Positions 12,204-24,494 of a DNA stretch of 64,000 bases are shown here, piece by piece (within the stretch, counting starts at the first letter, position 1; every line of letters starts with the position of its first letter). This DNA comes from Desulfosudis oleivorans (GTDB taxonomy: Bacteria > Desulfobacterota > Desulfobacteria > Desulfobacterales > SURF-7): contig DYJD01000007.1 in assembly GCA_020723325.1 (NCBI GenBank), forward strand, positions 124,001 through 188,000, written 5' to 3'. The notes under the pieces are model-generated. The model did not search any database, was not told the DNA's origin, and worked only from the letters and a program-made list of their open reading frames with translations. The position numbers and the translations under genes are program-made.

Positions 12204-12260
12204 ACCTTTGTAGCATGAATGGTGGAATACAAATTTTCAATCTCTAAAAGGAAGGCAAAA

Positions 12261-13076
12261 ATGAAATCATTGCGAACCATCGTCATTCTGAACATGATCT
12301 TGCTCATCAGTGCCGGCCAGGCCGGGGCCGGCAACATTGCCATCAAGGGCTCCACCACGGTGCTGCCCGTTGCCCAGAAAATCGCCGAGGAATTCATGAA
12401 GGAAAATCCCGACATCAAGATTTCCATTTCCGGCGGCGGTTCCGGCGAGGGTATCAAGGCTATTATCGACAGCACCACCGACATTGCCGACAGCTCGCGT
12501 TTCCTCGCCCAGAAGGAAGTGGATCTGGCCGTGTCCAAGGGCGTCTACCCGGTGCCTTTTGCCGTGGCCTATGACTGCATCGTACCGGTGGTGCATCCCG
12601 GCAATCCGGTGAAAAGCCTGACCCTGGACCAATTAAAGGCAATTTATAAAGGGGAAATCAAGAACTGGAAGGAAGTGGGCGGAGGGGATCAGAAAATCGT
12701 CGTGATCTCCCGGGACACCTCATCAGGGACCTTTGAAGTCTGGGAGGAAAAAGTCATGAAAAAGGAGCGGGTGTATCCCGGCGCCATGATGCAGGCTTCC
12801 AGCGGAGCAATTGTTCAGGCCGTTTCCAACAACAAAAACGCTTTGAGTTATATCGGCATCGGTTATCTGACCGCCAATGTCAAAGCCCTGACCGTGAACA
12901 ATGTCAAGGGTTCGGAAGAGACCACGCTGAACGGGACATATCCCATCAGCCGGGCATTATACATGTTCACCAAGGGCTGGCCGGCTGGTGATGTGGGCAA
13001 ATTCATTAATTATGCTGTGCATCCTACCAAGGGGCAAAAGCTGGTGAAGGCGGCCGGATTTGTGCCGCTTTATTAA
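12261..13076 (+). CDS. pstS: Phosphate-binding protein PstS (first system)
   Basis: Periplasmic receptor that delivers phosphate to PstCAB. 271 residues with a Sec signal peptide (about 1-23, ending AGAGN). The mature start IAIKGSTTVLPVAQKIAEEF and the SGGGSGEGIKAI segment, then DIADSSR and SRDTSSGTFE, supply the classic phosphate contacts. Translation starts at ATG 12261, ten bases after AAGGAAGG; an in-frame GTG at 12219 would spoil the signal peptide. It is the first gene of a pstSCAB-phoU-phoB-phoR operon behind a Pho-box-like sequence. Confidence 0.95.
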   Translation: MKSLRTIVILNMILLISAGQAGAGNIAIKGSTTVLPVAQKIAEEFMKENPDIKISISGGGSGEGIKAIIDSTTDIADSSRFLAQKEVDLAVSKGVYPVPFAVAYDCIVPVVHPGNPVKSLTLDQLKAIYKGEIKNWKEVGGGDQKIVVISRDTSSGTFEVWEEKVMKKERVYPGAMMQASSGAIVQAVSNNKNALSYIGIGYLTANVKALTVNNVKGSEETTLNGTYPISRALYMFTKGWPAGDVGKFINYAVHPTKGQKLVKAAGFVPLY

Positions 13077-13104
13077 GATAGCATATGAGTAGTCGAGTAC
13101 GATT

Positions 13105-13149
13105 ATGAGCAAGAGCAAGAGTAAGAGCAAGAGCAAGAAAAAAGGGTGA
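13105..13149 (+). CDS. Possible leader micro-ORF of Ser-Lys repeats
   Basis: ATG 13105 opens a 14-codon frame reading Met, five Ser-Lys pairs, Lys-Lys-Gly, stop. The stop (13147-13149) lies five bases before the pstC ATG, and the end of this frame contains the pstC ribosome binding sequence. The underlying DNA is a GAGCAA hexamer repeat, so the frame may be accidental. No clear ribosome binding site precedes it. Confidence 0.25.
   Translation: MSKSKSKSKSKKKG
13107..13139 (+). repeat. Hexamer tandem repeat (GAGCAA)n between pstS and pstC
   Basis: Five consecutive hexamers GAGCAA, GAGCAA, GAGTAA, GAGCAA, GAGCAA are followed by an A-rich end that runs into the pstC ribosome binding site. Repeat-number change by slippage would alter the pstS-pstC spacing by six bases per unit. 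Confidence 0.85.
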
Positions 13150-13154
13150 ATCCC

Positions 13155-14048
13155 ATGAACCTCAACCGCCGCTGGATTGAAAAAGGCATGCAATGGGGTT
13201 TATTTCTCACGGCCTTTGCATCCATATCCGTCCTGGTCATGATCGCCTTTTTTTTATTTACAGAAGGCTTGCCGATCTTTAAGAAAGTGTCGCTCAAGGC
13301 CTTTCTGTTTGGCCAATATTGGTATCCCACGGCGGACCCGACCGACTTCGGGATTTTCCCTTTGATCGTTGCTTCCCTGGCCGTTACCCTGCTCTCTGCT
13401 TTGATAGCCGTCCCCTTGGGGGTCATGACCGCGATCTATCTCGCGGAAGTGGCCTCCTTCCGTGTACGGGAAATCGTCAAGCCCGTAGTGGAAATGCTGG
13501 CGGCCCTGCCCTCCGTGGTTATCGGCTTTTTCGGCATGGTGGTGATGGCTCCCTTGCTGCAAAACACCTTTGAACTTGCCACCGGGCTGAATCTGTTCAA
13601 CGCCGCCCTGATGCTGGCCTTCATGGCCGTGCCCACCATCTGCAGCATTTCCGAGGACGCCATTTACAGCGTGCCCAACAATCTAAGGGAAGCATCCCTG
13701 GCCCTGGGCGCCACCCATTGGGAAACCATCATCCGGGTGGTACTGCCGGCTTCCATTTCCGGAATCAGTACCGCCGTTATTCTGGGAATGTCCCGTTCCA
13801 TCGGCGAAACCATGGTGGTGCTCATGGTGGCCGGCGGTTCGGCCATGGTGCCGGCAGCGCTTTTTGATCCAGTGCGGCCCATGCCGGCCAGCATTGCCGC
13901 GGAAATGGCTGAGGCCCCTTTCCGGGGGGACCATTATCACGCCCTGTTCGCCACGGGCATGGTCTTGTTCGGCTTCACCCTGCTCTTCAACATCATTGCG
14001 GATATCATCGCCAACAAATACCGCCAGGTGGGGGAGGCCACCCTATGA
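13155..14048 (+). CDS. pstC: Phosphate ABC transporter permease PstC (first system)
   Basis: One of two membrane subunits of the phosphate importer. About 297 residues and six transmembrane helices. The cytoplasmic EAA loop that docks on PstB is visible (LREASLALGATHWETIIRVV, about 175-195). The ATG at 13155 is eight bases after a GGG ribosome-binding core; GTG 13146 is an alternative. It overlaps pstA by four bases (ATGA). Confidence 0.95.
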   Translation: MNLNRRWIEKGMQWGLFLTAFASISVLVMIAFFLFTEGLPIFKKVSLKAFLFGQYWYPTADPTDFGIFPLIVASLAVTLLSALIAVPLGVMTAIYLAEVASFRVREIVKPVVEMLAALPSVVIGFFGMVVMAPLLQNTFELATGLNLFNAALMLAFMAVPTICSISEDAIYSVPNNLREASLALGATHWETIIRVVLPASISGISTAVILGMSRSIGETMVVLMVAGGSAMVPAALFDPVRPMPASIAAEMAEAPFRGDHYHALFATGMVLFGFTLLFNIIADIIANKYRQVGEATL

Positions 14049-14893
14049 TCCGAAAGCTGCAACAACATGTTTTCTTCAACTTGTTCCGCGCGGCGGCGAC
14101 GGTGAACGCCGCGGCCCTGATTCTATTGACCGGCTTCATTCTTCTCAAGGGCTGGCGCGCTGTCACTTGGACCTTCCTGACCCAGCCGCCCCTGGATTCA
14201 ATGACCCGGGGCGGAATCCTGCCCTGCATTGTGGGCACCCTGGTGCTGAGTCTCGGCGCCATGGGGGTGGCCATGCCCGTCGGCGTGGCCTCGGCCGTCT
14301 ACCTGAATGAATACGCTTGCGGCGGCCGCCTGCTGCGTATAATCCGCCTGGGGATCAATAATCTGGCCGGGGTGCCCTCCATTGTTTTCGGCTTGTTCGG
14401 CTTGTCTTTTTTCGTGATTTATCTGAAAATAGGGGTGAGCATTCTGGCCGGGGCCTTGACCCTGGGGGTCATGACCCTGCCGGTGATGATCGGTGCCACC
14501 GAGGAGGCCCTCAAAGCCGTGCCAGACACCTATCGGGAAGCCTCCCTGGCCCTGGGGGCCACCAAATTTCAAACCATCTTCCGGGTGGTCCTGCCCGCGG
14601 CTATGCCGGGAATCCTGACCGGCGGCATTCTGGGCCTCAGCCGGGCCGCCGGGGAAACAGCGCCCATTATGTTCACCGCCGCCGTCTTTTTCCGGCCGGA
14701 TCTGCCGGAATCTATCTTTGATGAAATCATGGCCCTGCCCTATCACATTTATGTGCTGGCCACGGCCGGAACGGAAATTGAGAAAACCCGGCCCCTGCAA
14801 TACGGCACTTCCCTGGTACTGATCGCCCTGGTGCTGGGCATGACCCTTGCCGCGATTCTGTATCGCACCCGCTTGCGACGGCGCATGCGCTGA
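14045..14893 (+). CDS. pstA: Phosphate ABC transporter permease PstA (first system)
   Basis: Second membrane subunit, 282 residues, about six helices. The EAA loop YREASLALGATKFQTIFRVV lies near 160-180, and the typical SRAAGETAPIMFTAAVFF follows. Start overlaps the pstC stop (ATGA), a mark of translational coupling. It pairs with PstC and the PstB dimer encoded next. Confidence 0.95.
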   Translation: MIRKLQQHVFFNLFRAAATVNAAALILLTGFILLKGWRAVTWTFLTQPPLDSMTRGGILPCIVGTLVLSLGAMGVAMPVGVASAVYLNEYACGGRLLRIIRLGINNLAGVPSIVFGLFGLSFFVIYLKIGVSILAGALTLGVMTLPVMIGATEEALKAVPDTYREASLALGATKFQTIFRVVLPAAMPGILTGGILGLSRAAGETAPIMFTAAVFFRPDLPESIFDEIMALPYHIYVLATAGTEIEKTRPLQYGTSLVLIALVLGMTLAAILYRTRLRRRMR

Positions 14894-14908
14894 AAAAGAG
14901 GAATAGGC

Positions 14909-15712
14909 ATGAATATTCGCAATCAATCGACCACCATAATGGCACCCGAATCGGAAGTTCTGTATAAAATGCAGGCCAAGGACTTAAGCTTCTTTTATAA
15001 TGGTTCTCAAGCCCTGCACACAATTCATCTAGCGTTTCTACCCCGTCAGGTCGTGGCCCTCATCGGCCCTTCCGGGTGCGGAAAAAGCACTTTCCTGCGT
15101 TGTCTGAACCGCATGAACGACTTGATACCCAATACCCGGGCCACAGGTGAATTGTTGCTGGACGGCCGCAACATTTATTCGCCGCAAGTGGATGTGGTGA
15201 ACTTGCGCAGCCGCATCGGCATGGTTTTTCAAAAACCCAATCCCTTTCCCAAAAGCATTTTCGAGAATGTGGCCTATGGCTTACGGGTCAAAGGGATCAA
15301 GGACAAAGGCCGCATTGTCGAACGGGTGGAAAAAACCCTGCAACAGGCCGCCCTCTGGGAGGAGGTCAAGGACCGCCTGCATGATTCGGCCCTGGGACTG
15401 TCCGGCGGCCAGCAGCAGCGCCTCTGCATCGCCAGGGCCCTGGCGGTGGAGCCCGAGGTGCTGCTCATGGATGAGCCCTGTTCGGCCCTGGATCCCATCG
15501 CCACCCAGAAAATCGAAGAATTGATCCATGAATTGAAGGACCAATACACCATCATCATAGTCACCCACAACATGCAACAGGCGGCCCGGGTGTCGGCTAT
15601 GACTGCCTTTTTTTACATGGGCCGTCTCATCGAAGTGGAAGAAACCGACACCTTGTTTACGCGCCCCCGGTTGAAACAGACCGAGGACTACATCACCGGA
15701 CGGTTTGGCTGA
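14909..15712 (+). CDS. pstB: Phosphate ABC transporter ATPase PstB (first system)
   Basis: Cytosolic ATPase, 267 residues, expected to work as a homodimer. All motifs are canonical: Walker A GPSGCGKS (about 51-58), Q-loop MVFQKPN, signature LSGGQQQR, Walker [13 protein letters not shown] and H-loop VTHNMQQA. It is the reference for judging the two altered PstB-like proteins of the second system. It follows pstA by 15 bases and is followed by phoU. Confidence 0.96.
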
Positions 15713-15728
15713 AAAGGAGAACCGGGCA

Positions 15729-16391
15729 ATGGCAAAACATTTGCAAAGAGAACTGGACAAATTGAAAAAAACCATCCTTACCCTGGGAGCCATGGTGGAG
15801 GAACGGGTGCGCATGGCGGTCCAGGCCGTGGAAAACCGGGATGAGGCCCTGGCCCAGCGGGTGGTGCAGGCGGATCACGACATCGATGTGATGGAAGTGG
15901 AAGTGGAGGAGGAATGCCTGAAGCTGTTGGCCCTGTATCAGCCGGTGGCCGTGGATCTGCGTTTCATCGTGGCGGTGATCAAGATCAACAATGAGCTGGA
16001 AAGCATCGCGGACCAGGCCGTAAACATCGCTGAGCGGGTCATCACCATCGCAAGGCGGCCGCCCTTTGACCAGGCGGTTTTCGACTTCTCCCGCATGGCG
16101 GAAAAAGCCCAGGCCATGCTCAAGAAAAGCCTGGATGCCCTGGTGAACCTGGATGTTGATCTGGCTTTCAAGGTCATGTTATTGGATGACGAAGTGGATG
16201 AACTGCGCAACGAAGCCTATGACCGGATCAAACAGGTCATGGCGGCCAACCCGGATCGGCTGGGTCTGCTGATCAACATGCTGTTGATCTCGCGTCACCT
16301 GGAACGCCTGGCGGACTATACCACCAATATCGCCGAAGAGGTCATCTACCTGATCGAAGGGGAGATCGTTCGACATGGGGAGATCTGCTGA
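15729..16391 (+). CDS. phoU: Phosphate signalling protein PhoU (first copy)
   Basis: 220 residues forming two PhoU three-helix domains (about 10-100 and 115-210), with the conserved E...D-D-E-V acidic patches that bind metal (DHDIDVMEVEVEEE and LLDDEVDELRNEAYD). PhoU links Pst transport to PhoR and prevents kinase activity when phosphate is ample. ATG 15729 follows AAGGAG (15714-15719) at nine bases; an earlier GTG-type frame start overlaps pstB. Its stop TGA shares one base with the phoB ATG. Confidence 0.94.
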   Translation: MAKHLQRELDKLKKTILTLGAMVEERVRMAVQAVENRDEALAQRVVQADHDIDVMEVEVEEECLKLLALYQPVAVDLRFIVAVIKINNELESIADQAVNIAERVITIARRPPFDQAVFDFSRMAEKAQAMLKKSLDALVNLDVDLAFKVMLLDDEVDELRNEAYDRIKQVMAANPDRLGLLINMLLISRHLERLADYTTNIAEEVIYLIEGEIVRHGEIC

Positions 16392-17083
16392 TGAAATCCA
16401 AAAATATTCTAGTAGTGGATGATGAGGAAGACATTCTGGAACTGATCCGTTTCAATCTGGCCCGGGAAGGGTACCGGGTGGTCTGCGCCGCCAGCGGCGA
16501 AGAGGCTGTGAAGCTTACCCAGAGCGCCGGCCTGGATCTCATGGTGCTGGATCTGATGCTGCCGGGCATGGACGGGCTGGAAGTGGCCCGCCGTCTGAAA
16601 AGCACAAATCAAACCCGCAATCTGCCCATCATCATGCTCACCGCCAAGGGCGAAGAGGCGGATGTGGTGGCCGGTCTGGAACTGGGGGCCGATGACTACA
16701 TCACCAAACCCTTTTCCCCCCGTGTGCTCCTGGCCAGGATCAAGGCGGTCCTGCGGCGCCGGGAGGAAGGTGCGGACGAACCGGAAGAAGTTATTCGCCT
16801 GGATGAGCTGCGCATTCATCCGGGCCGCCATGAAGTCAGCATCGACAATCAAAGCCTGGCGCTGACCCTCACGGAATTCCAGATCCTGCACTACCTGGCC
16901 AAGCGGCCGGGCTGGGTGGCCACCCGCTCCCAGATCGTGGATGCCGTGCGCGGGGTGGGCTATGCCGTAACCGACCGCAGCGTGGATGTCCAGATCGTGG
17001 GGCTGCGTAAAAAAATGGGATCTTACGGCCATCTCATCCAAACCGTGCGCGGGGTGGGGTATAAATTCAAGGAAAAGACATGA
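16391..17083 (+). CDS. phoB: Phosphate regulon response regulator PhoB
   Basis: 230 residues. Receiver domain 1-120 with the acidic pocket DDEED (10-14), phosphoacceptor Asp54 (LDLMLPGMDG) and Lys in MLTAKG near 104. The C-terminal OmpR-type winged helix (about 135-230) ends with RKKMGS...IQTVRGVGYKF. It should bind the 11-bp repeats upstream of pstS. It overlaps both neighbours (one base with phoU, four with phoR). Confidence 0.95.
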   Translation: MKSKNILVVDDEEDILELIRFNLAREGYRVVCAASGEEAVKLTQSAGLDLMVLDLMLPGMDGLEVARRLKSTNQTRNLPIIMLTAKGEEADVVAGLELGADDYITKPFSPRVLLARIKAVLRRREEGADEPEEVIRLDELRIHPGRHEVSIDNQSLALTLTEFQILHYLAKRPGWVATRSQIVDAVRGVGYAVTDRSVDVQIVGLRKKMGSYGHLIQTVRGVGYKFKEKT

Positions 17084-18876
17084 AAAAAAAACGCAGACTC
17101 ATTTGGCAGCTCTATCCATCCTATCTGCTGATCACCCTGTTCTCCCTGCTGGCAACGGCTTGGTACACTTCGGCATCGGTGCACCGCTTTTTCCTGGAAA
17201 ACACGGAAGCCGACCTCCTGACCCAGGGCCAACTCTTAAAAAAAATGTTCCACGACTATGTGGAGCCCCTGGACGAAGCCCGCATTGATGAGGCCTGCAA
17301 ACAGGCCGCGGCCGCCACCCTCACCCGCCTCACGGTGATCCTCCCCAGCGGCGAGGTTGTGGGCGACTCGGAATCCGACCCGGCCCAAATGGAAAACCAC
17401 CGGGACCGGCCGGAAGTGCAAAAAGCCTTTGCCGATGAAAATTCCGCCTCCATCCGCTACAGCGCCACCCTGAAAAAAAACCTGATGTATGTGGCCCTTC
17501 CCATCCATGCCCAGGGCAAGGTGGCGGCGGTGCTGCGGGCTGCCAGGCCGGTTTCGGCCATTGAAGAAAAACTGGACTCCATCCGCCTGAAGATCGCCGT
17601 GGGAGGCCTGCTCATGGCCGCCCTGGCAGCGGGAATTTCCTTTTTCGTCTCCCGCCGCATCGTCCGACCCATTGAATATATCAAACAAGGGGTGGAGCAA
17701 TTCGCCCGGGGCAATCTGAAACAGCCCCTTTTGCCGCCCGCCACCCTGGAACTGGCCGCACTGGCCGAAGCCATGAATGCCGTGGCCCTCCAGTTGCAGA
17801 CCCGCATTGAGACCGTGATCTCTCAGAAAAACGAGTATGAATCGGTTTTGGCCGGCATGGTGGAAGGCGTGGTGGCCTTGGACAGGAACGAGAACATCAT
17901 CACCATCAACCGGGCGGCCATGAACATCCTCGGGCAGAAGCTTTCGGATTTCCGCGGGCGCAGCCTGTATGAATTGACCCGCAACAGCGCCCTGTATCAA
18001 GTCGTGGCCGACTCCATCACCACCGGCAAGATCACAGAGGGAGACATGGTTTTTCATGGGGATGAAAAGCGCATCGTGCATACCCAAAGCATCCCCTTGC
18101 GCGATCCGGCTGAAAAATGCATTGGAACCCTGCTGGTTCTCAACGACGTCAGCCAGCTCCGGCAGTTGGAAACCATCCGGCGGGATTTTGCGGCCAATGT
18201 TTCCCATGAAATCAAGACCCCCCTCACCGCCATCAAGGGCTTTGTGGAAACCCTGCTGCAAGGCGCCGCGCAAAACCCGGAAGATTCACGCCGTTTTCTG
18301 GAAATCATCAACAAACATGTGGATCGCCTTGATGCCATCGTGGGCGACCTGCTCGCCCTTGCGCGTCTCGAACAGCAGGAGGGGCTGCCTACCCTGACCC
18401 TTGAACGCAAACGTCTCCTGGACATCCTCCAGGCTGCCGTCCAGATTGTTCAACCCAAGGCCGAAGCCAAAAAAATGCGGCTTGAGGTTTCCTGCGCCGA
18501 CGACCTTTTCCTGGAAGTCGATCAAGCCCTGCTGGACCAGGCCCTGGTGAACCTCCTTGACAATGCCGTCCAATACAGCCCGGAAAACAGCCTTGTTCAA
18601 GTGAACGTGCAACTCAACGCCATGGCTGTGAACATCACCGTGGCCGACAACGGCCCGGGCATTTCAGCCAAACACCTTCCGCGCTTGTTTGAACGCTTTT
18701 ACCGGGTGGACAAAGCCAGAAGCCGCAAACTGGGCGGAACCGGCCTGGGGCTGGCCATCGTCAAACATGCCGTGCAGGCCCATGGCGGCCAGGTCGGCGT
18801 GGAAAGCACCGTGGGCCAAGGCAGTATTTTTGAAATCCGCCTGCCCCGGACCTTGATGAGTGCAAGCGTTGTTTGA
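17080..18876 (+). CDS. phoR: Phosphate regulon sensor kinase PhoR
   Basis: 598 residues: TM1 (about 9-29), an extracytoplasmic region to about 165, TM2 (about 166-188), HAMP (about 190-240), a PAS domain (about 250-360), HisKA with His376 in NVSHEIKTPLTAIKGF, and a HATPase domain with the N, G1 and G2 boxes (LDNAVQYS, DNGPGIS, GGTGLGLAIVKH). The long periplasmic loop is larger than in E. coli PhoR and resembles Bacillus PhoR. Phosphate status probably reaches it through PstSCAB and one of the two PhoU proteins. Confidence 0.93.
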   Translation: MKKKRRLIWQLYPSYLLITLFSLLATAWYTSASVHRFFLENTEADLLTQGQLLKKMFHDYVEPLDEARIDEACKQAAAATLTRLTVILPSGEVVGDSESDPAQMENHRDRPEVQKAFADENSASIRYSATLKKNLMYVALPIHAQGKVAAVLRAARPVSAIEEKLDSIRLKIAVGGLLMAALAAGISFFVSRRIVRPIEYIKQGVEQFARGNLKQPLLPPATLELAALAEAMNAVALQLQTRIETVISQKNEYESVLAGMVEGVVALDRNENIITINRAAMNILGQKLSDFRGRSLYELTRNSALYQVVADSITTGKITEGDMVFHGDEKRIVHTQSIPLRDPAEKCIGTLLVLNDVSQLRQLETIRRDFAANVSHEIKTPLTAIKGFVETLLQGAAQNPEDSRRFLEIINKHVDRLDAIVGDLLALARLEQQEGLPTLTLERKRLLDILQAAVQIVQPKAEAKKMRLEVSCADDLFLEVDQALLDQALVNLLDNAVQYSPENSLVQVNVQLNAMAVNITVADNGPGISAKHLPRLFERFYRVDKARSRKLGGTGLGLAIVKHAVQAHGGQVGVESTVGQGSIFEIRLPRTLMSASVV

Positions 18877-18975
18877 TACATTTGAATCAAAATAAATTTG
18901 CGTCAAAGATTGCAAGCTGATAAAGTATGTTGGATTTACAACCGGTATTACTTTAATTCAAGGAAGCCGAAAGAA

Positions 18976-20076
18976 ATGCAATCCTATCTGAATGAGCTGC
19001 TGACAAGAGATATCGATCGAATTCGCAAGAATGTTCAGGAGATGTCCGGGCTGGCGGAAAAGGCCCTGCAAGATTGCGTGCGGGCCCTGGCCGAAAATAA
19101 CCGGAAACTGGCTTACGCCGTGATCCTGCGCGATTATTACATCGATGAAAAGGAGAAGGAAGTCGACCGGCTTTGCCTGGAATTCATCGTGCGCCAGCAG
19201 CCCGTGGGTTTGCCCTTGCGTTTTGCCTACAATACCATCCGGATCAACCTGCAGATCGAGCGGGTGGGCGACTATGCCGTAAGCATCGCCCGTTCACTAC
19301 TTAAAATGAAGCAGGCCGTGCCTGAAGCCATCAAAGACGAGCTCCTGGACATGGCTAAAATTTCCATTCTCATGCTGCAGGAGGCGAGCCGGGCTTTTCT
19401 GGAACAGGACATCGAGCTGGCCAAAAAAAACATCGCCGTGGATGATACGGTTGATGAGCTGCGGATCAAATGCAGCTCCAAGTTGAACAGCCTTTTTTTG
19501 AACCAGGACATTCCTTTCGACTTGCTGGAGCCCATGACCACCATCGTGCGGCGCTTTGAAAGGGCCTCTGATCAGGCACGCAACATCTGCCTGGAAGTCC
19601 TGCACATGTGCACCGGTGAAAATCCCAAGCATCCGGGGGCCGCCGCTTTTCGGATTTTGTTTCTGGACAATCATAATTCCTGCCGCGGGCAAATGGCCGA
19701 GGTCATTGCCGAAGCCATGAATCAACCCCGGTTCATCTTCACCAGCGCCGGGCTCGAGCCCCGACCGGTTTCCGCAGCCACCATAAAATTCATGAAAACC
19801 AAAGGCTTTGATTTGTCCAGGATCGCCCCGCGGTCGTTGCATAATATCCCCAACTTGGAATACTACGACGTGATCATTGCCTTTTCCCCCAAAGCCATGA
19901 AAGCTTTTCCGCCGGATGTCAGGCGCGTAATCATGCTGGATTGGAGTATGGATGATCCGTCCCAAGTGCGGGGCCCGGAAGAAGTCGTTACCGCGGCCTA
20001 TGAGGAAGCCTACCAGATTATCAAAGTCCAATTGAATGATTTGATCAGCGCCATCATCGGCAATGAGATCCCATAG
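18976..20076 (+). CDS. PhoU fused to a catalytically altered ArsC/LMW-phosphatase domain
   Basis: 366 residues. Residues 1-215 form a two-domain PhoU (acidic patches DYYIDEKEKEVDRL and AVDDTVDELRI). Residues about 225-366 match low-molecular-weight phosphatase/arsenate reductase folds: strand, P-loop, helix (FRILFLDNHNSCRGQMAEV) then SAG and the D-P segment near 323 (MDDPSQ). In active ArsC the P-loop starts with a nucleophilic Cys (CX5R); here that position is Asp231, while Cys236-Arg237 remain. The second redox Cys pair of ArsC is missing. The domain therefore probably binds an oxyanion without turning it over. ATG 18976 follows AAGGAAG; a TTG 26 codons earlier is unlikely. It stands between phoR and the second pst set. 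Confidence 0.85.
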   Translation: MQSYLNELLTRDIDRIRKNVQEMSGLAEKALQDCVRALAENNRKLAYAVILRDYYIDEKEKEVDRLCLEFIVRQQPVGLPLRFAYNTIRINLQIERVGDYAVSIARSLLKMKQAVPEAIKDELLDMAKISILMLQEASRAFLEQDIELAKKNIAVDDTVDELRIKCSSKLNSLFLNQDIPFDLLEPMTTIVRRFERASDQARNICLEVLHMCTGENPKHPGAAAFRILFLDNHNSCRGQMAEVIAEAMNQPRFIFTSAGLEPRPVSAATIKFMKTKGFDLSRIAPRSLHNIPNLEYYDVIIAFSPKAMKAFPPDVRRVIMLDWSMDDPSQVRGPEEVVTAAYEEAYQIIKVQLNDLISAIIGNEIP

Positions 20077-20088
20077 AGGAGGAATTGC

Positions 20089-21018
20089 ATGCGGATAGTC
20101 AATACAACCCAGGTTCCACGTTCACTCTTGCATTACACCTTGAAGGTCGCAATGATCGGCTGCCTCATTTTCAGCGGCTGCCAAAGCAAAAACGAGCCGC
20201 AAGAAAAAAAGACCAAGGTCGTCACCATCCAGGTGAAAGGTTCCGACACCCTGGTGAATGTGGCCCAAGCCTGGGCTGAGGAATATAAGAAGATCGCTCC
20301 TTCCGTGGATGTGGAGGTTTCCGGCGGAGGGTCGGGGGTGGGCATCGCCGCCCTGGTCAAGGGCACCATCGATATCGCCACCGCCAGTCGCAACATGAGG
20401 CCGGAAGAAGTGGAAGCGGCCAAACGCAATACCGGCAAGGACGCCAAGGAGTTCACGTTGGGATATGACGGACTGGCAATTTATGTCCATAAGGATAATC
20501 CCATGAAGGAAATTTCCATGGATCAATTGGCGGCTGTTTTTACCGAAGACGGCACCTTTACCAAATGGTCGCAACTGGGTGTGACCATTCCCAATGTCGA
20601 TGATGACGCCATCGTGCGTGTCAGCCGCCAGTCCAGTTCCGGCACCTACGAATTTTTCCGGGAACACGTTTTGAATAAAAAGGATTTCAAACTCGGCTCC
20701 CGGGACATGAACGGCTCCAAGGAAGTTGTGGAATTGATCAGCAACACCAAAACCGCCATCGGCTACAGCGGCATGGGCTATGCCACACCCGCTGTGAAAA
20801 TGCTCCATATTTCTCCCAAAACCGGTGAACCGGCGGTTCCGCCGACCATAGAGAATACCATAACCCAAAAATATCCTTTGGCCCGCTCCCTCCATCTCTA
20901 TACATTGGGCCAGTCCCAAGGTGCGGTCCAACAATTCATCGATTGGATTCTTTCGGCTGCCGGACAAAACATATTGAAAGAAAACGGGTATGTTCCGGTA
21001 CAATCAACCGGCAACTAA
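20089..21018 (+). CDS. pstS: Phosphate-binding lipoprotein PstS (second system)
   Basis: 309 residues with a lipoprotein signal (lipobox LIFSGC, Cys near 27) unlike the soluble PstS of the first system. Phosphate-site segments KGSDTLVNVAQ, SGGGSGVGIAAL, ATASRNM and RQSSSGTYEF are present. An AGGAGG ribosome binding site precedes ATG 20089. Lipid anchoring holds the receptor at a membrane. The substrate could be phosphate at a different affinity or a related oxyanion; sequence alone does not decide. Confidence 0.9.
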   Translation: MRIVNTTQVPRSLLHYTLKVAMIGCLIFSGCQSKNEPQEKKTKVVTIQVKGSDTLVNVAQAWAEEYKKIAPSVDVEVSGGGSGVGIAALVKGTIDIATASRNMRPEEVEAAKRNTGKDAKEFTLGYDGLAIYVHKDNPMKEISMDQLAAVFTEDGTFTKWSQLGVTIPNVDDDAIVRVSRQSSSGTYEFFREHVLNKKDFKLGSRDMNGSKEVVELISNTKTAIGYSGMGYATPAVKMLHISPKTGEPAVPPTIENTITQKYPLARSLHLYTLGQSQGAVQQFIDWILSAAGQNILKENGYVPVQSTGN

Positions 21019-21090: not shown

Positions 21091-22023
21091 ATGAACGACA
21101 TGTCCGAATCAGACCGCCTGCCGACTCTGCCCAAACGTTCAGTGGTATCCATGGCCGGGGAGAAACTGCTGGAATTCATCATCCGTTTGAGCGGGATCAG
21201 CGCCATTGTTTTTGTTTTGGCCATTTTTTTCTTTATTTTCCGTGAGGCGGCGCCCATTTTTTTCAGTGAAAATTTTAATCTTGTCAAATTTTTATTCAAT
21301 GCCGAGTGGTACCCGACCTCTGTAACGAATGTCCGATACGGCACCCTGGCCTTGACCGTGGGTAGCATCAGTGTGACGCTTTTGGCCATGTCCATCGCAG
21401 TGCCCTTTGGTCTGGGCAGCGCCGTCTATATTTCCGAATTTTGCAGCCCCAGGCTGAAGGAAGCGCTCAAGATCATCATTGAATTGCTGGCGGCGATTCC
21501 CAGCGTGGTCTGGGGTTTCATCGGTCTGACGGTAATGAGCCGCACGATCATCTCCCTTACCGGAGCACCGGTGGGGGTCAATCTGCTCAACGGCGGATTG
21601 ATACTGGCCTTGATGAGTGTGCCGATCATTGTATCCATTGCCGAAGACGCCTTGAAGGCGGTGCCGGATTCCTATCGGGAAGCTGCTTTGGCCCTTGGCG
21701 CCACCAACTGGCAGGTGGTCTATCGCGTGCTCTTGCCCTCGGCCAAAAACGGACTGCTGGCCGCGGTCCTTTTGGGCATCGGCCGCTCCGTGGGCGAAAC
21801 CATGGCCGTGCTGATGGCCACCGGCCATGCCGTGCAGATCCCCCATGGCCTGCTCGATTCCGTGCGTACGCTGACAGCCAATATCGCCGCCGAACTGGGG
21901 GAGGCCTCTGCCAGTTCCGACCATTACCATGTTTTGTTTCTGACCGGGGTCCTGCTGTTCATCCTCACCTTCGCGGTCAATCTGACCGCCGATTTTGTGA
22001 TCCGCGGGATCAGAAGGAAATAA
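21091..22023 (+). CDS. pstC: Phosphate ABC transporter permease PstC (second system)
   Basis: 310 residues, six predicted transmembrane helices after a 25-residue cytoplasmic start. The EAA loop is YREAALALGATNWQVVYRVL (about 190-209). It is clearly a paralogue, not a recent duplicate, of the first PstC: the sequences differ throughout. Its stop overlaps the next ATG by one base. Confidence 0.93.
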   Translation: MNDMSESDRLPTLPKRSVVSMAGEKLLEFIIRLSGISAIVFVLAIFFFIFREAAPIFFSENFNLVKFLFNAEWYPTSVTNVRYGTLALTVGSISVTLLAMSIAVPFGLGSAVYISEFCSPRLKEALKIIIELLAAIPSVVWGFIGLTVMSRTIISLTGAPVGVNLLNGGLILALMSVPIIVSIAEDALKAVPDSYREAALALGATNWQVVYRVLLPSAKNGLLAAVLLGIGRSVGETMAVLMATGHAVQIPHGLLDSVRTLTANIAAELGEASASSDHYHVLFLTGVLLFILTFAVNLTADFVIRGIRRK

Positions 22024-22940
22024 TGCCGATGACCAACAACCTTGATCCTGCCCAACGCTTTACAAAAACCGAATTTGTGGTCCGCAAGGAGCGCATCCAG
22101 TCCATCACCAAGGTTTTGTTTGCCGTTATGGCGATCAGCATGATCATTCCCCTGCTGTTGATTATTGGGTATTTGTTTTATCATGCCCTGCCCTCGCTGA
22201 GCTGGGAATTTCTAGTGGAAGTACCCAAGAAAGGCATGCGTGACGGCGGCATTTGGCCGGCCTTTGTGGGCACCTTGTACCTTGTGGTCATTTCCCTGGC
22301 CATTGCCGCCCCCGTAGGTGTTTTTGCCGCTGTTTACCTGAACGAATACGCCAAGGACAACTGGTTCAACCGCATCATCCATCTGGCGGTGATCAATCTG
22401 GCCGGCGTGCCCAGCATCGTGCATGCCCTTTTCGGGCTGGGCGCCTTTGTGTATGCGGCCGAATTCGGATATTCCATTCTATCCGCCGCCCTTACCCTGG
22501 CCATTATGACACTGCCGGTGATCATCGCCAGCACCCGTGAGGCCTTGGCATCTGTTCCCATGCCCTTTCGGGAAGCCTGCTGGAATGTGGGTGCCAGCCG
22601 CTGGCAAACCATCCGGGCCGTTGTAGTGCCCAATTCCATCAGCGGTATTCTCACCGGGATTATCTTGCAGGTGAGCCGGGCCGCGGGCGAAACCGCGCCC
22701 GTCATGTTCACCGGCGCCGTCTTTTATAAAGCTGTTGAACGCGGGGAGCTTTTCCCGTACCAGTTGAATGAGCAATGCATGGCCCTGTCCATGCACCTCT
22801 ACACCGTGGCCACCCAGGTACCTAATGTGAAGGAATCGATCCCTTACGCCACAGCGGTAGTACTGCTCTGCTCGGTGCTGCTGGTCAATGCCGGCGCCAT
22901 CGCCCTGCGTGTTTGGCTGCGCAATCACAAAAAATGGTAA
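22023..22940 (+). CDS. pstA: Phosphate ABC transporter permease PstA (second system)
   Basis: 305 residues, six predicted helices. Its EAA loop (FREACWNVGASRWQTIRAVV, about 179-198) departs from the usual REA-ALALGA pattern found in the other three permeases of the window, with Cys-Trp-Asn-Val in place of Ala-Leu-Ala-Leu. This loop contacts the ATPase, so the change may match the unusual PstB-like partners. Start at 22023 or the second ATG at 22029. Confidence 0.93.
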   Translation: MPMTNNLDPAQRFTKTEFVVRKERIQSITKVLFAVMAISMIIPLLLIIGYLFYHALPSLSWEFLVEVPKKGMRDGGIWPAFVGTLYLVVISLAIAAPVGVFAAVYLNEYAKDNWFNRIIHLAVINLAGVPSIVHALFGLGAFVYAAEFGYSILSAALTLAIMTLPVIIASTREALASVPMPFREACWNVGASRWQTIRAVVVPNSISGILTGIILQVSRAAGETAPVMFTGAVFYKAVERGELFPYQLNEQCMALSMHLYTVATQVPNVKESIPYATAVVLLCSVLLVNAGAIALRVWLRNHKKW

Positions 22941-22944
22941 CCGT

Positions 22945-23709
22945 ATGGAACATTCTGAAAAAGCCATCGAAATTATAGATCTGCGCCTGAGCTACGGTGT
23001 GAAGGAAGTCATCCACGGCCTAACCTTTGATATATACCGCCATGAAATTTTCGGCATCATCGGCCCGGCCCAATCCGGCAAAACCTCGCTCCTGCGCTGT
23101 CTGAATCGCACCATCGATTTTGAGAGCAGCGCCACCGTTTCCGGCACCATCCGGGTGGATGGGAGCGATATCCGCCGCACCAAGGATATTTATGCCCTGC
23201 GCCGTAAAATTGGAATGGTGGCGCCGCTGCCGGTGGGTTTGCCGCTGAGCATTTACGACAACGTGGCCTTTGCGCCCCGCAGTTCCGGGCTTACAAAAAA
23301 GGCCGACCTGGACTCCATCGTGGAGCGCTGTCTGAAGCAGGCGGCCCTTTGGGAAGAGGTGAAGGACCGTCTACATACCTTGGGGACCGCCTTATCCGGC
23401 GGACAGCAGCAACGGTTGACCATTGCCCGGGCGCTTTCGCACCAGCCGAGAATTCTTTGCCTGGATGAATTTTCCATCGCCATCGATCCGGTGACCACCA
23501 TGCGGATAGAAGATGTATTGAAAGAGCTGCGCAAGGAGATCACCATCATTCTGGTCACCAACCTGACCCAGCAGGCTCGCCGTTTGGCCGACCGCACCAT
23601 GTTTCTCTGGAATGGGGATTGCGTCGAGCTGGACAGCACGGAAATCATTTTTTCCGACCGCCCGGCCAATTCGAAAACATATGAGTATGTTAATGGAATA
23701 TTTGGTTGA
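22945..23709 (+). CDS. PstB-like ATPase with altered Q-loop and H-loop (second system, A)
   Basis: 254 residues. Walker A is present but atypical (GPAQSGKT, 40-47), the signature LSGGQQQR (150-157) is perfect, and Asp174-Glu175 of Walker B are kept (LCLDEFSIAIDP, Phe in place of the usual Pro). The Q-loop Gln is replaced by Pro94 (MVAPLPV, canonical MVFQKPN) and the H-loop His by Asn206 (VTNLTQQA, canonical VTHNMQQA). It should bind ATP at its own Walker site poorly or without efficient turnover, yet it offers a normal signature to a partner. ATG 22945 is five bases after the pstA stop; an upstream in-frame start lies inside pstA. Confidence 0.88.
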   Translation: MEHSEKAIEIIDLRLSYGVKEVIHGLTFDIYRHEIFGIIGPAQSGKTSLLRCLNRTIDFESSATVSGTIRVDGSDIRRTKDIYALRRKIGMVAPLPVGLPLSIYDNVAFAPRSSGLTKKADLDSIVERCLKQAALWEEVKDRLHTLGTALSGGQQQRLTIARALSHQPRILCLDEFSIAIDPVTTMRIEDVLKELRKEITIILVTNLTQQARRLADRTMFLWNGDCVELDSTEIIFSDRPANSKTYEYVNGIFG

Positions 23710-23714
23710 AGCAT

Positions 23715-24494
23715 ATGGCTGCTGAACAAAAGCAAAACAGTATTCAAACCCGGAATCTGAACCTCTGGTACGGCGAATTTCAGGCCCTCAAATCCGTGTC
23801 CGTTGACGTAAAGAACGGCCTGATCACTGCGCTGATCGGCCCCAGCGGTTGCGGCAAGACCACCCTGTTGCGGTGCTTCAACCGCATCAATGAGCGTTTC
23901 CCCTATGTCCGCACCCAGGGGGAGATCGTGATTCTCGGTAAAAACATTTATGATCCGGATGTTTCCCTGATCGAATTGCGCAAATCCGTGGGTATGGTTT
24001 TTCAGCGCCCCAACCCCATTCCGATATCCGTTTATGAAAATGTCCTTTTCGGCTTGCGCATCCACCATCGCTTGGGCCATTTTAAAAAAGCCTATTTGGA
24101 GGAAATCGTGGAAAAATCCTTAACGGAAGTCGGCCTGTGGAAAGATCTCAGGGACCGCCTGAAAGTTAAAGCAACCACCTTGCAGTTGGAGCAGCAGCAG
24201 AAGCTTTGCATTGCCCGTCTGCTACCCCTGAAACCGGAAATCATTTTAATGGATGAACCCTGCTCCGCCCTGGATGTTGAAGGTACCCGCTCCATCGAGG
24301 ATCTGATGTACAAACTGCGGGGACGTTACACCATCGTTATCGTCACCCATAACATGGCCCAGGCCCGGCGGGTCAGCGATGAATGCATTTTCATGCTGCT
24401 GGGTGAAAAAATCGAGCATTCCCGCACCGAGGATTTGTTCCTGAAACCCCAAAACCCCAAGACCGGCGAATACATCGAAGGCCGCTATGGATGA
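23715..24494 (+). CDS. PstB-like ATPase with degenerate signature motif (second system, B)
   Basis: 259 residues from ATG 23715 (a TTG at 23706 overlapping the previous stop is possible). Walker A GPSGCGKT (42-49), Q-loop MVFQRPN (Gln97), Walker [11 protein letters not shown] (Asp180, Glu181) and H-loop VTHNMAQA (His212) are all canonical. The signature that should read LSGGQQQR reads LQLEQQQK (156-163), so it cannot complete the ATP site of a partner in the normal way. This is the mirror image of the preceding protein; together they could form a heterodimer with one competent and one degenerate site. Confidence 0.88.
   Translation: MAAEQKQNSIQTRNLNLWYGEFQALKSVSVDVKNGLITALIGPSGCGKTTLLRCFNRINERFPYVRTQGEIVILGKNIYDPDVSLIELRKSVGMVFQRPNPIPISVYENVLFGLRIHHRLGHFKKAYLEEIVEKSLTEVGLWKDLRDRLKVKATTLQLEQQQKLCIARLLPLKPEIILMDEPCSALDVEGTRSIEDLMYKLRGRYTIVIVTHNMAQARRVSDECIFMLLGEKIEHSRTEDLFLKPQNPKTGEYIEGRYG

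Follow-up and report, generated by a model that had tools for sequence, protein, structure and literature searches.

The window, a 64,000-nucleotide stretch of a Desulfosudis oleivorans contig, contains two sets of genes for phosphate import (Table 1). The second set starts directly downstream of a gene in which PhoU is fused to an arsenate reductase (ArsC)-like domain, and in this cassette the intergenic gaps are short or overlapping. At each locus with sufficient flanking sequence, the fusion gene is followed by PstS, PstC, PstA, PstB-a and PstB-b in that order; the exception is locus L075, where PstS lies on the opposite side of the fusion. The PstS, PstC and PstA genes are in the order of a Pst importer and encode the residues used in transport, but no single PstB with all motifs intact is present; there are instead two PstB-like subunits. 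Both PstC R237 and PstA R220 (E. coli numbering) were kept in 17 of 17 cassettes. In E. coli, mutating PstC R237 or PstA R220 abolishes transport while signalling is spared (PMC5775613). Retention of these two residues makes transport by the cassette plausible. A search of the 64-kb window for Pho-box sequences gave 11 matches, versus 11.2 expected, and none was close to the fusion gene.

Table 1. Features of the fusion gene, its cassette and the preceding Pst set in the window
Feature	Coordinates	Strand	Evidence
Ordinary first set PstS1, PstC1, PstA1, PstB1 (motifs all intact), PhoU1, PhoB, PhoR; outside the cassette	12219..18876	+	
PhoU-pseudoArsC fusion, 366 aa	18976..20076	+	ORF, Pfam/NCBIfam domain matches, AlphaFold2, structure match
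PhoU domain, residues 1-220; E(D)xxxD motifs E95/D99 and E195/D199 both present	18976..19635	+	
ArsC/LMW-phosphatase-fold domain, residues 225-366, catalytically degenerate	19648..20073	+	
P-loop D231-N-H-N-S-C-R237; Asp codon GAC replacing the nucleophilic Cys	19666..19686	+	
PstS2, substrate-binding protein of the cassette	20089..21018	+	
PstC2 permease; R237 and E241 (E. coli numbering) retained 17/17	21091..22023	+	
PstA2 permease; R220 retained; E173 to Arg/Lys 17/17	22023..22940	+	
PstB-a; Walker A and LSGGQ intact; Q-loop APL without Gln, Walker B DEF, H-loop VTN	22945..23709	+	
PstB-b; Walker A/B, Q-loop and H-loop intact; LSGGQQQR to LQLEQQQK	23706..24494	+	

The fusion ORF opens with the ATG at 18976, encodes 366 residues and stops at 20076; the earliest listed start, a TTG at 18898, merely extends the protein. 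In Pfam searches the PhoU domain matched PF01895 at 4e-33 (114 bits), and residues 227-356 matched the LMWPc domain at 8e-10 (39.5 bits against a cut-off of 23.2). The protein passed the full-length PhoU model TIGR02135 of NCBIfam (137 bits, cut-off 130); the NCBIfam ArsC models scored about 52 bits, far under their cut-offs of 158-174 (for TIGR02691, 52.5 versus 174.3). The AlphaFold2 model, made with an alignment of 23 fusions, had a mean pLDDT of 90. Both folds are sure in this model, but the mutual orientation of the PhoU and ArsC-like domains is uncertain because the linker (219-222) and the C-terminus were predicted with low confidence (pTM 0.60).

The N-terminal part of the model resembles the solved PhoU structures of P. 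aeruginosa (4q25) and A. aeolicus (1t72) at Z 28-30: residues 1-220 form the same helical bundle, with both E(D)xxxD motifs, and like phoU the fusion gene sits in a pst gene cluster. It differs from PhoU in having an added C-terminal domain and in heading its pst set instead of ending it. Residues 222-363 were matched best by B. subtilis ArsC (1jl3; Z 19.9, rmsd 2.1, 136 residues), with the LMW tyrosine phosphatases lower at Z of about 16-17, and the nearest solved relative by sequence was the glutaredoxin-type ArsC of Synechocystis (2l17; 7e-12). By these scores and the sequence match to 2l17, arsenate reductases are closer relatives of the C-domain than tyrosine phosphatases are. It shares with the thioredoxin- and glutaredoxin-type ArsC proteins (B. 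subtilis 1jl3, S. aureus pI258, Synechocystis 2l17) the fold, the position of the P-loop, the HNSCR sequence and a DW...DP segment; unlike them, it has Asp in place of the nucleophilic Cys, lacks both redox Cys residues and is fused to PhoU. The first-pass annotation was therefore correct in its description of a PhoU fused to an ArsC-like domain, in the extent of the gene, in its reading of Asp231, in anticipating an ArsC/LMW-phosphatase fold and in placing the gene at the head of a second Pst set. The C-domain model (residues 221-365) was also matched, at Z 17.4, by chain FW of a Trypanosoma brucei mitoribosome assembly intermediate (7pua), a case of the same fold employed elsewhere than in a free-standing enzyme.

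The P-loop of the window protein is FLDNHNSCRGQMAE, i.e. F-L-D231-N-H-N-S-C-R237, with Asp231 at the nucleophile position. The Cys of the LMW-phosphatase triad is thus absent, and the other two residues, Arg237 and Asp327, are present. Further fusions were sought in related genomes, in a genome collection, in 395 genomes of the phylum, in 194 genomes of the window's order and in 168 genomes of Fibrobacterota (NCBI phylum), to which the Chitinivibrionales MAG L038 belongs. These searches brought the family to 24 fusions, 23 full-length and one partial (L117), from Desulfobacterota-type and Fibrobacterota genomes; two genomes, G449 and G451, have two copies each (L112/L121 and L114/L122). A plasmid search for the fusion returned ordinary PhoU matches only. 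The nucleophile position is Asp in 17 of the 24 (the window, L038-L041, L046, L110-L117, L121, L122 and L126), Ser in five (L035 and L042-L045), Gly in L036 and Cys in L037. The loss of the nucleophile first seen in the window protein thus extends over nearly the whole fusion family. As a control, all 30 ordinary LMWPc domains read from a search of 59 related genomes kept the Cys.

The redox Cys pair of thioredoxin-type ArsC, already reported as missing from the window protein, is replaced there by residues other than Cys and is likewise absent from all fusion members (23 full-length sequences aligned). Judged by these residues, the C-domain is a pseudo-arsenate-reductase, an ArsC fold with neither the nucleophilic Cys nor the redox pair. 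It is improbable that catalysis has been retained or regained, be it as a phosphatase or arsenate reductase employing another nucleophile or with Asp as a phospho-acceptor. Phosphate acceptance by Asp is possible in principle, and L037, a close homologue (76% identity to the window protein), combines Cys, Arg and the DP aspartate; but none of the 23 full-length members has the redox pair, 22 of them lack the nucleophilic Cys, and Asp327, the general acid of the DP motif, is lost in eight. The PhoU motif E95/D99 was found in 23 of 23 full-length fusions and E195/D199 in 22; Asn234 of the P-loop was kept in 20 of 23. Arg237 was kept in 18 of 24 fusions, including the window (18 of 23 full-length), and was lost in six, representing about four lineages (L043, L045, L046, L112, L121 and L117).

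In the tree, the window protein clusters with L035, L036 and L037 (support 1.00), a group in which D, S, G and C all occur at position 231; the remaining clades carry Asp, bar a single Ser clade. Since the distant clades have Asp and the mixture is confined to the window's group, the simplest reading is that Asp is ancestral in the part of the family that contains the window protein and that L037 acquired its Cys later, a polarity taken from the tree and the distribution of residues, with an uncertain root. The idea that Asp might be fixed in such fusions thus holds in part: it is dominant and looks ancestral, but it varies within the clade of the window protein, where the closest relatives have Gly, Ser and Cys, and the one other clade has Ser. 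According to the first-pass annotation, a catalytic Cys in close homologues would mark the Asp of the window as a recent mutation. Such a homologue does exist in L037, at 76% identity, but the conclusion does not follow from it because more distant members have Asp. A single recent mutation or sequencing error affecting the window only is hardly credible, and was ruled out by 16 other fusions, drawn from two phyla, that also have Asp.

The pN/pS ratio of the C-domain was 0.07-0.41, mostly a little above that of the PhoU half. As these values are well below 1, the domain is maintained by purifying selection. The mixed residues at the catalytic position within the window's clade might be taken to mean that the C-domain is a functionless, decaying remnant. 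This is very improbable, as the domain is intact and open in all members, with a confidently predicted fold; decay was rejected on the pN/pS values and on the persistence of the domain across two phyla.

The main companion feature of the fusion, missed by the first-pass annotation, is a pair of PstB subunits with complementary lesions. PstB-a retains Walker A and LSGGQ, but all 17 copies compared lack the Gln of the Q-loop (APL or FPL instead of FQK), the Pro of Walker B (DEF) and the His of the H-loop (VTN). PstB-b retains Walker A and these three motifs; the Gly-Gly of its signature is missing from 16 of 16 copies, where LSGGQQQR has become LQLEQQQK or a close variant. Both fall under the cut-off of the NCBIfam PstB equivalog model TIGR00972. 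The ATP sites of an ABC dimer are composite: for each, one subunit supplies Walker A and B, the Q-loop and the H-loop, and its partner supplies the signature. Given this composition, the defects of PstB-a and PstB-b would coincide in one composite site and the other site would be intact, so the two proteins are expected to pair as a heterodimer in which one ATP site is degenerate. ABC transporters with one degenerate site are marked by complementary losses of motifs in their two NBDs, and by its motifs the PstB pair displays this pattern.

The occurrence of PstB-a closely follows that of the fusion. In the 395-genome sample, separate searches for PstB-a and for the fusion picked out exactly the same nine genomes; PstB-a scored 434-493 bits in these, and its next match 293. 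In the Fibrobacterota sample PstB-a was present in 8 of 168 genomes, each of which also has the fusion; in a ninth, G451, the fusion is located on short contigs and PstB-a was not found. Both genes were present in G000 and G715 of the order sample (194 genomes); the fusion contig of G002 in that sample terminates in PstC. None of the sampled genomes had PstB-a without the fusion. Tandem pstB genes are known from Enterococcus faecalis, where pstB1 and pstB2 are adjacent in the pst-phoU locus and non-redundant (PMC12096839), but there the four ATPase motifs are intact in both proteins, whereas each of the window PstBs has a distinct lesion. The heterodimeric ABC exporters PatAB and BmrCD resemble the PstB pair in having two different NBDs and one degenerate site; they are exporters, however, and the window pair belongs to a type I phosphate importer.

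PhoU is linked to ArsC in other pst operons as well. Two independent, active PhoU-ArsC fusions (L129:1486-2595 and L130:817-1962), found in the same taxonomic order as the window and sharing just 25-27% identity with its fusion protein, have intact catalytic and redox Cys residues; each is followed by a further free arsC gene and lies beside an ordinary pst set with a single PstB. At L025, L127 and L128, also of this taxonomic order, phoU is directly followed by a free, intact arsC in an ordinary pst operon. All five loci resemble the window in that PhoU precedes ArsC, as a domain or as a gene, within a pst operon, but in the window's family the chemistry is gone, whereas these have intact Cys and an ordinary single PstB. 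Such fusions and gene pairs indicate that the link between PhoU and an active ArsC arose more than once. Its rationale may be the coupling of arsenate reduction to a phosphate importer that admits arsenate, and the fused domain was presumably derived from a neighboring arsC gene. No open literature was found on PhoU-ArsC or PhoU-LMWP fusions or PhoU with pseudoenzymes, nor on PstB1/PstB2 in Desulfo- bacteria. The PhoU/Pst system and tandem pstB genes are known; what is new are two coupled oddities, the PhoU-pseudoArsC fusion and the lesion-bearing PstB pair.

The fused dead ArsC domain and the lesion-bearing PstB pair suggest an undescribed version of the phosphate importer that is asymmetric and self-sensing. 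Our preferred reading, to which we give slightly less than an even chance, is that a PhoU with a pseudo-arsenate-reductase domain regulates an asymmetric Pst importer, probably by sensing a cytosolic oxyanion. PstB-a and PstB-b would form a heterodimer in which the competent site is built from the Walker A and B motifs, Q-loop and H-loop of PstB-b and the LSGGQ of PstB-a, and the second ATP site would be degenerate. The PhoU half would dock onto this pair as PhoU does elsewhere; PhoU is known to bind PstB and PhoR (PMC5775613, PMC12096839). The pseudo-ArsC half would be the input module. In members that keep N234, S235 and R237, as do the window protein and most others, the P-loop would bind a cytosolic oxyanion, most likely phosphate, and the protonated anion would donate a hydrogen bond to Asp231, which occupies the place of the Cys thiolate; an aspartate beside protonated phosphate is the arrangement in periplasmic phosphate-binding proteins (PMC4755225). 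An occupied pocket would then alter how PhoU holds the ATPases or PhoR, and so throttle import or the Pho response. In members without the Arg, the domain would serve purely as a partner-binding adaptor.

Anion sensing is thus plausible but would not be universal in the family, because loss of the P-loop Arg in 6 of 24 fusions rules out oxyanion binding as a function conserved in all of them. The P-loop is also hardly more conserved than the domain average (mean entropy of 1.49 versus 1.66 bits for the rest of the C-domain), which argues against a sensor, as do the repeated loss of Arg237 and the lability of Asp near the window; an ionized Asp beside a bound anion could, moreover, repel it. 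The main rival, a serious possibility though a doubtful one, is that the pseudo-ArsC domain is a ligand-free structural or protein-binding adaptor, which, in the manner of a partner-binding eukaryotic pseudophosphatase, would bring PhoU to the asymmetric PstB pair or direct it to a partner kinase. The best-conserved sites of the C-domain are core and helix residues (L228, F229, F255, F272, W323 and L356) rather than the P-loop, as an adaptor would have it, and the fold persists under purifying selection while the Arg has been lost. There is precedent in EGG-4 and EGG-5 of C. elegans, pseudophosphatases with Cys replaced by Asp in the active-site motif that regulate a DYRK-type kinase (PMC8622459), although these are eukaryotic, kinase-acting proteins of another phosphatase superfamily. 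A pure scaffold would, however, have no need of N234, S235 and R237. In its fullest form, sensing by the fusion would define an undescribed importer class: a Pst system in which the heterodimeric ATPase has a single active site and import is gated by a PhoU; the dead ArsC domain of this PhoU would be a cytosolic receptor for phosphate or arsenate, with the Asp selecting the protonated anion. This complete version we consider rather unlikely.

It is unsettled in what way PhoU and Pst inform the cell about phosphate, and whether there is direct sensing of the cytosolic pool. If sensing by the fusion is true, the internal phosphate sensor of the Pst/PhoU system would be contained within one polypeptide. 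A PhoU with its own oxyanion-pocket fold offers a natural and separable test case, since one can produce the pocket by itself, titrate it and mutate it. Similarly, the PstB pair would provide a phosphate importer with a naturally degenerate ATP site, a design familiar from exporters, in which the two sites are genetically distinguishable.

Two of the other cassette proteins also depart from E. coli at particular positions. Where E. coli PstA has Glu173, PstA2 has Arg or Lys in all 17 cassettes, and R170 is replaced by Ala or Val. The anion site of PstS2 begins with GSDT rather than GSTT, which puts Asp at the position of T35 of the E. coli precursor in 16 of 16 cassettes.
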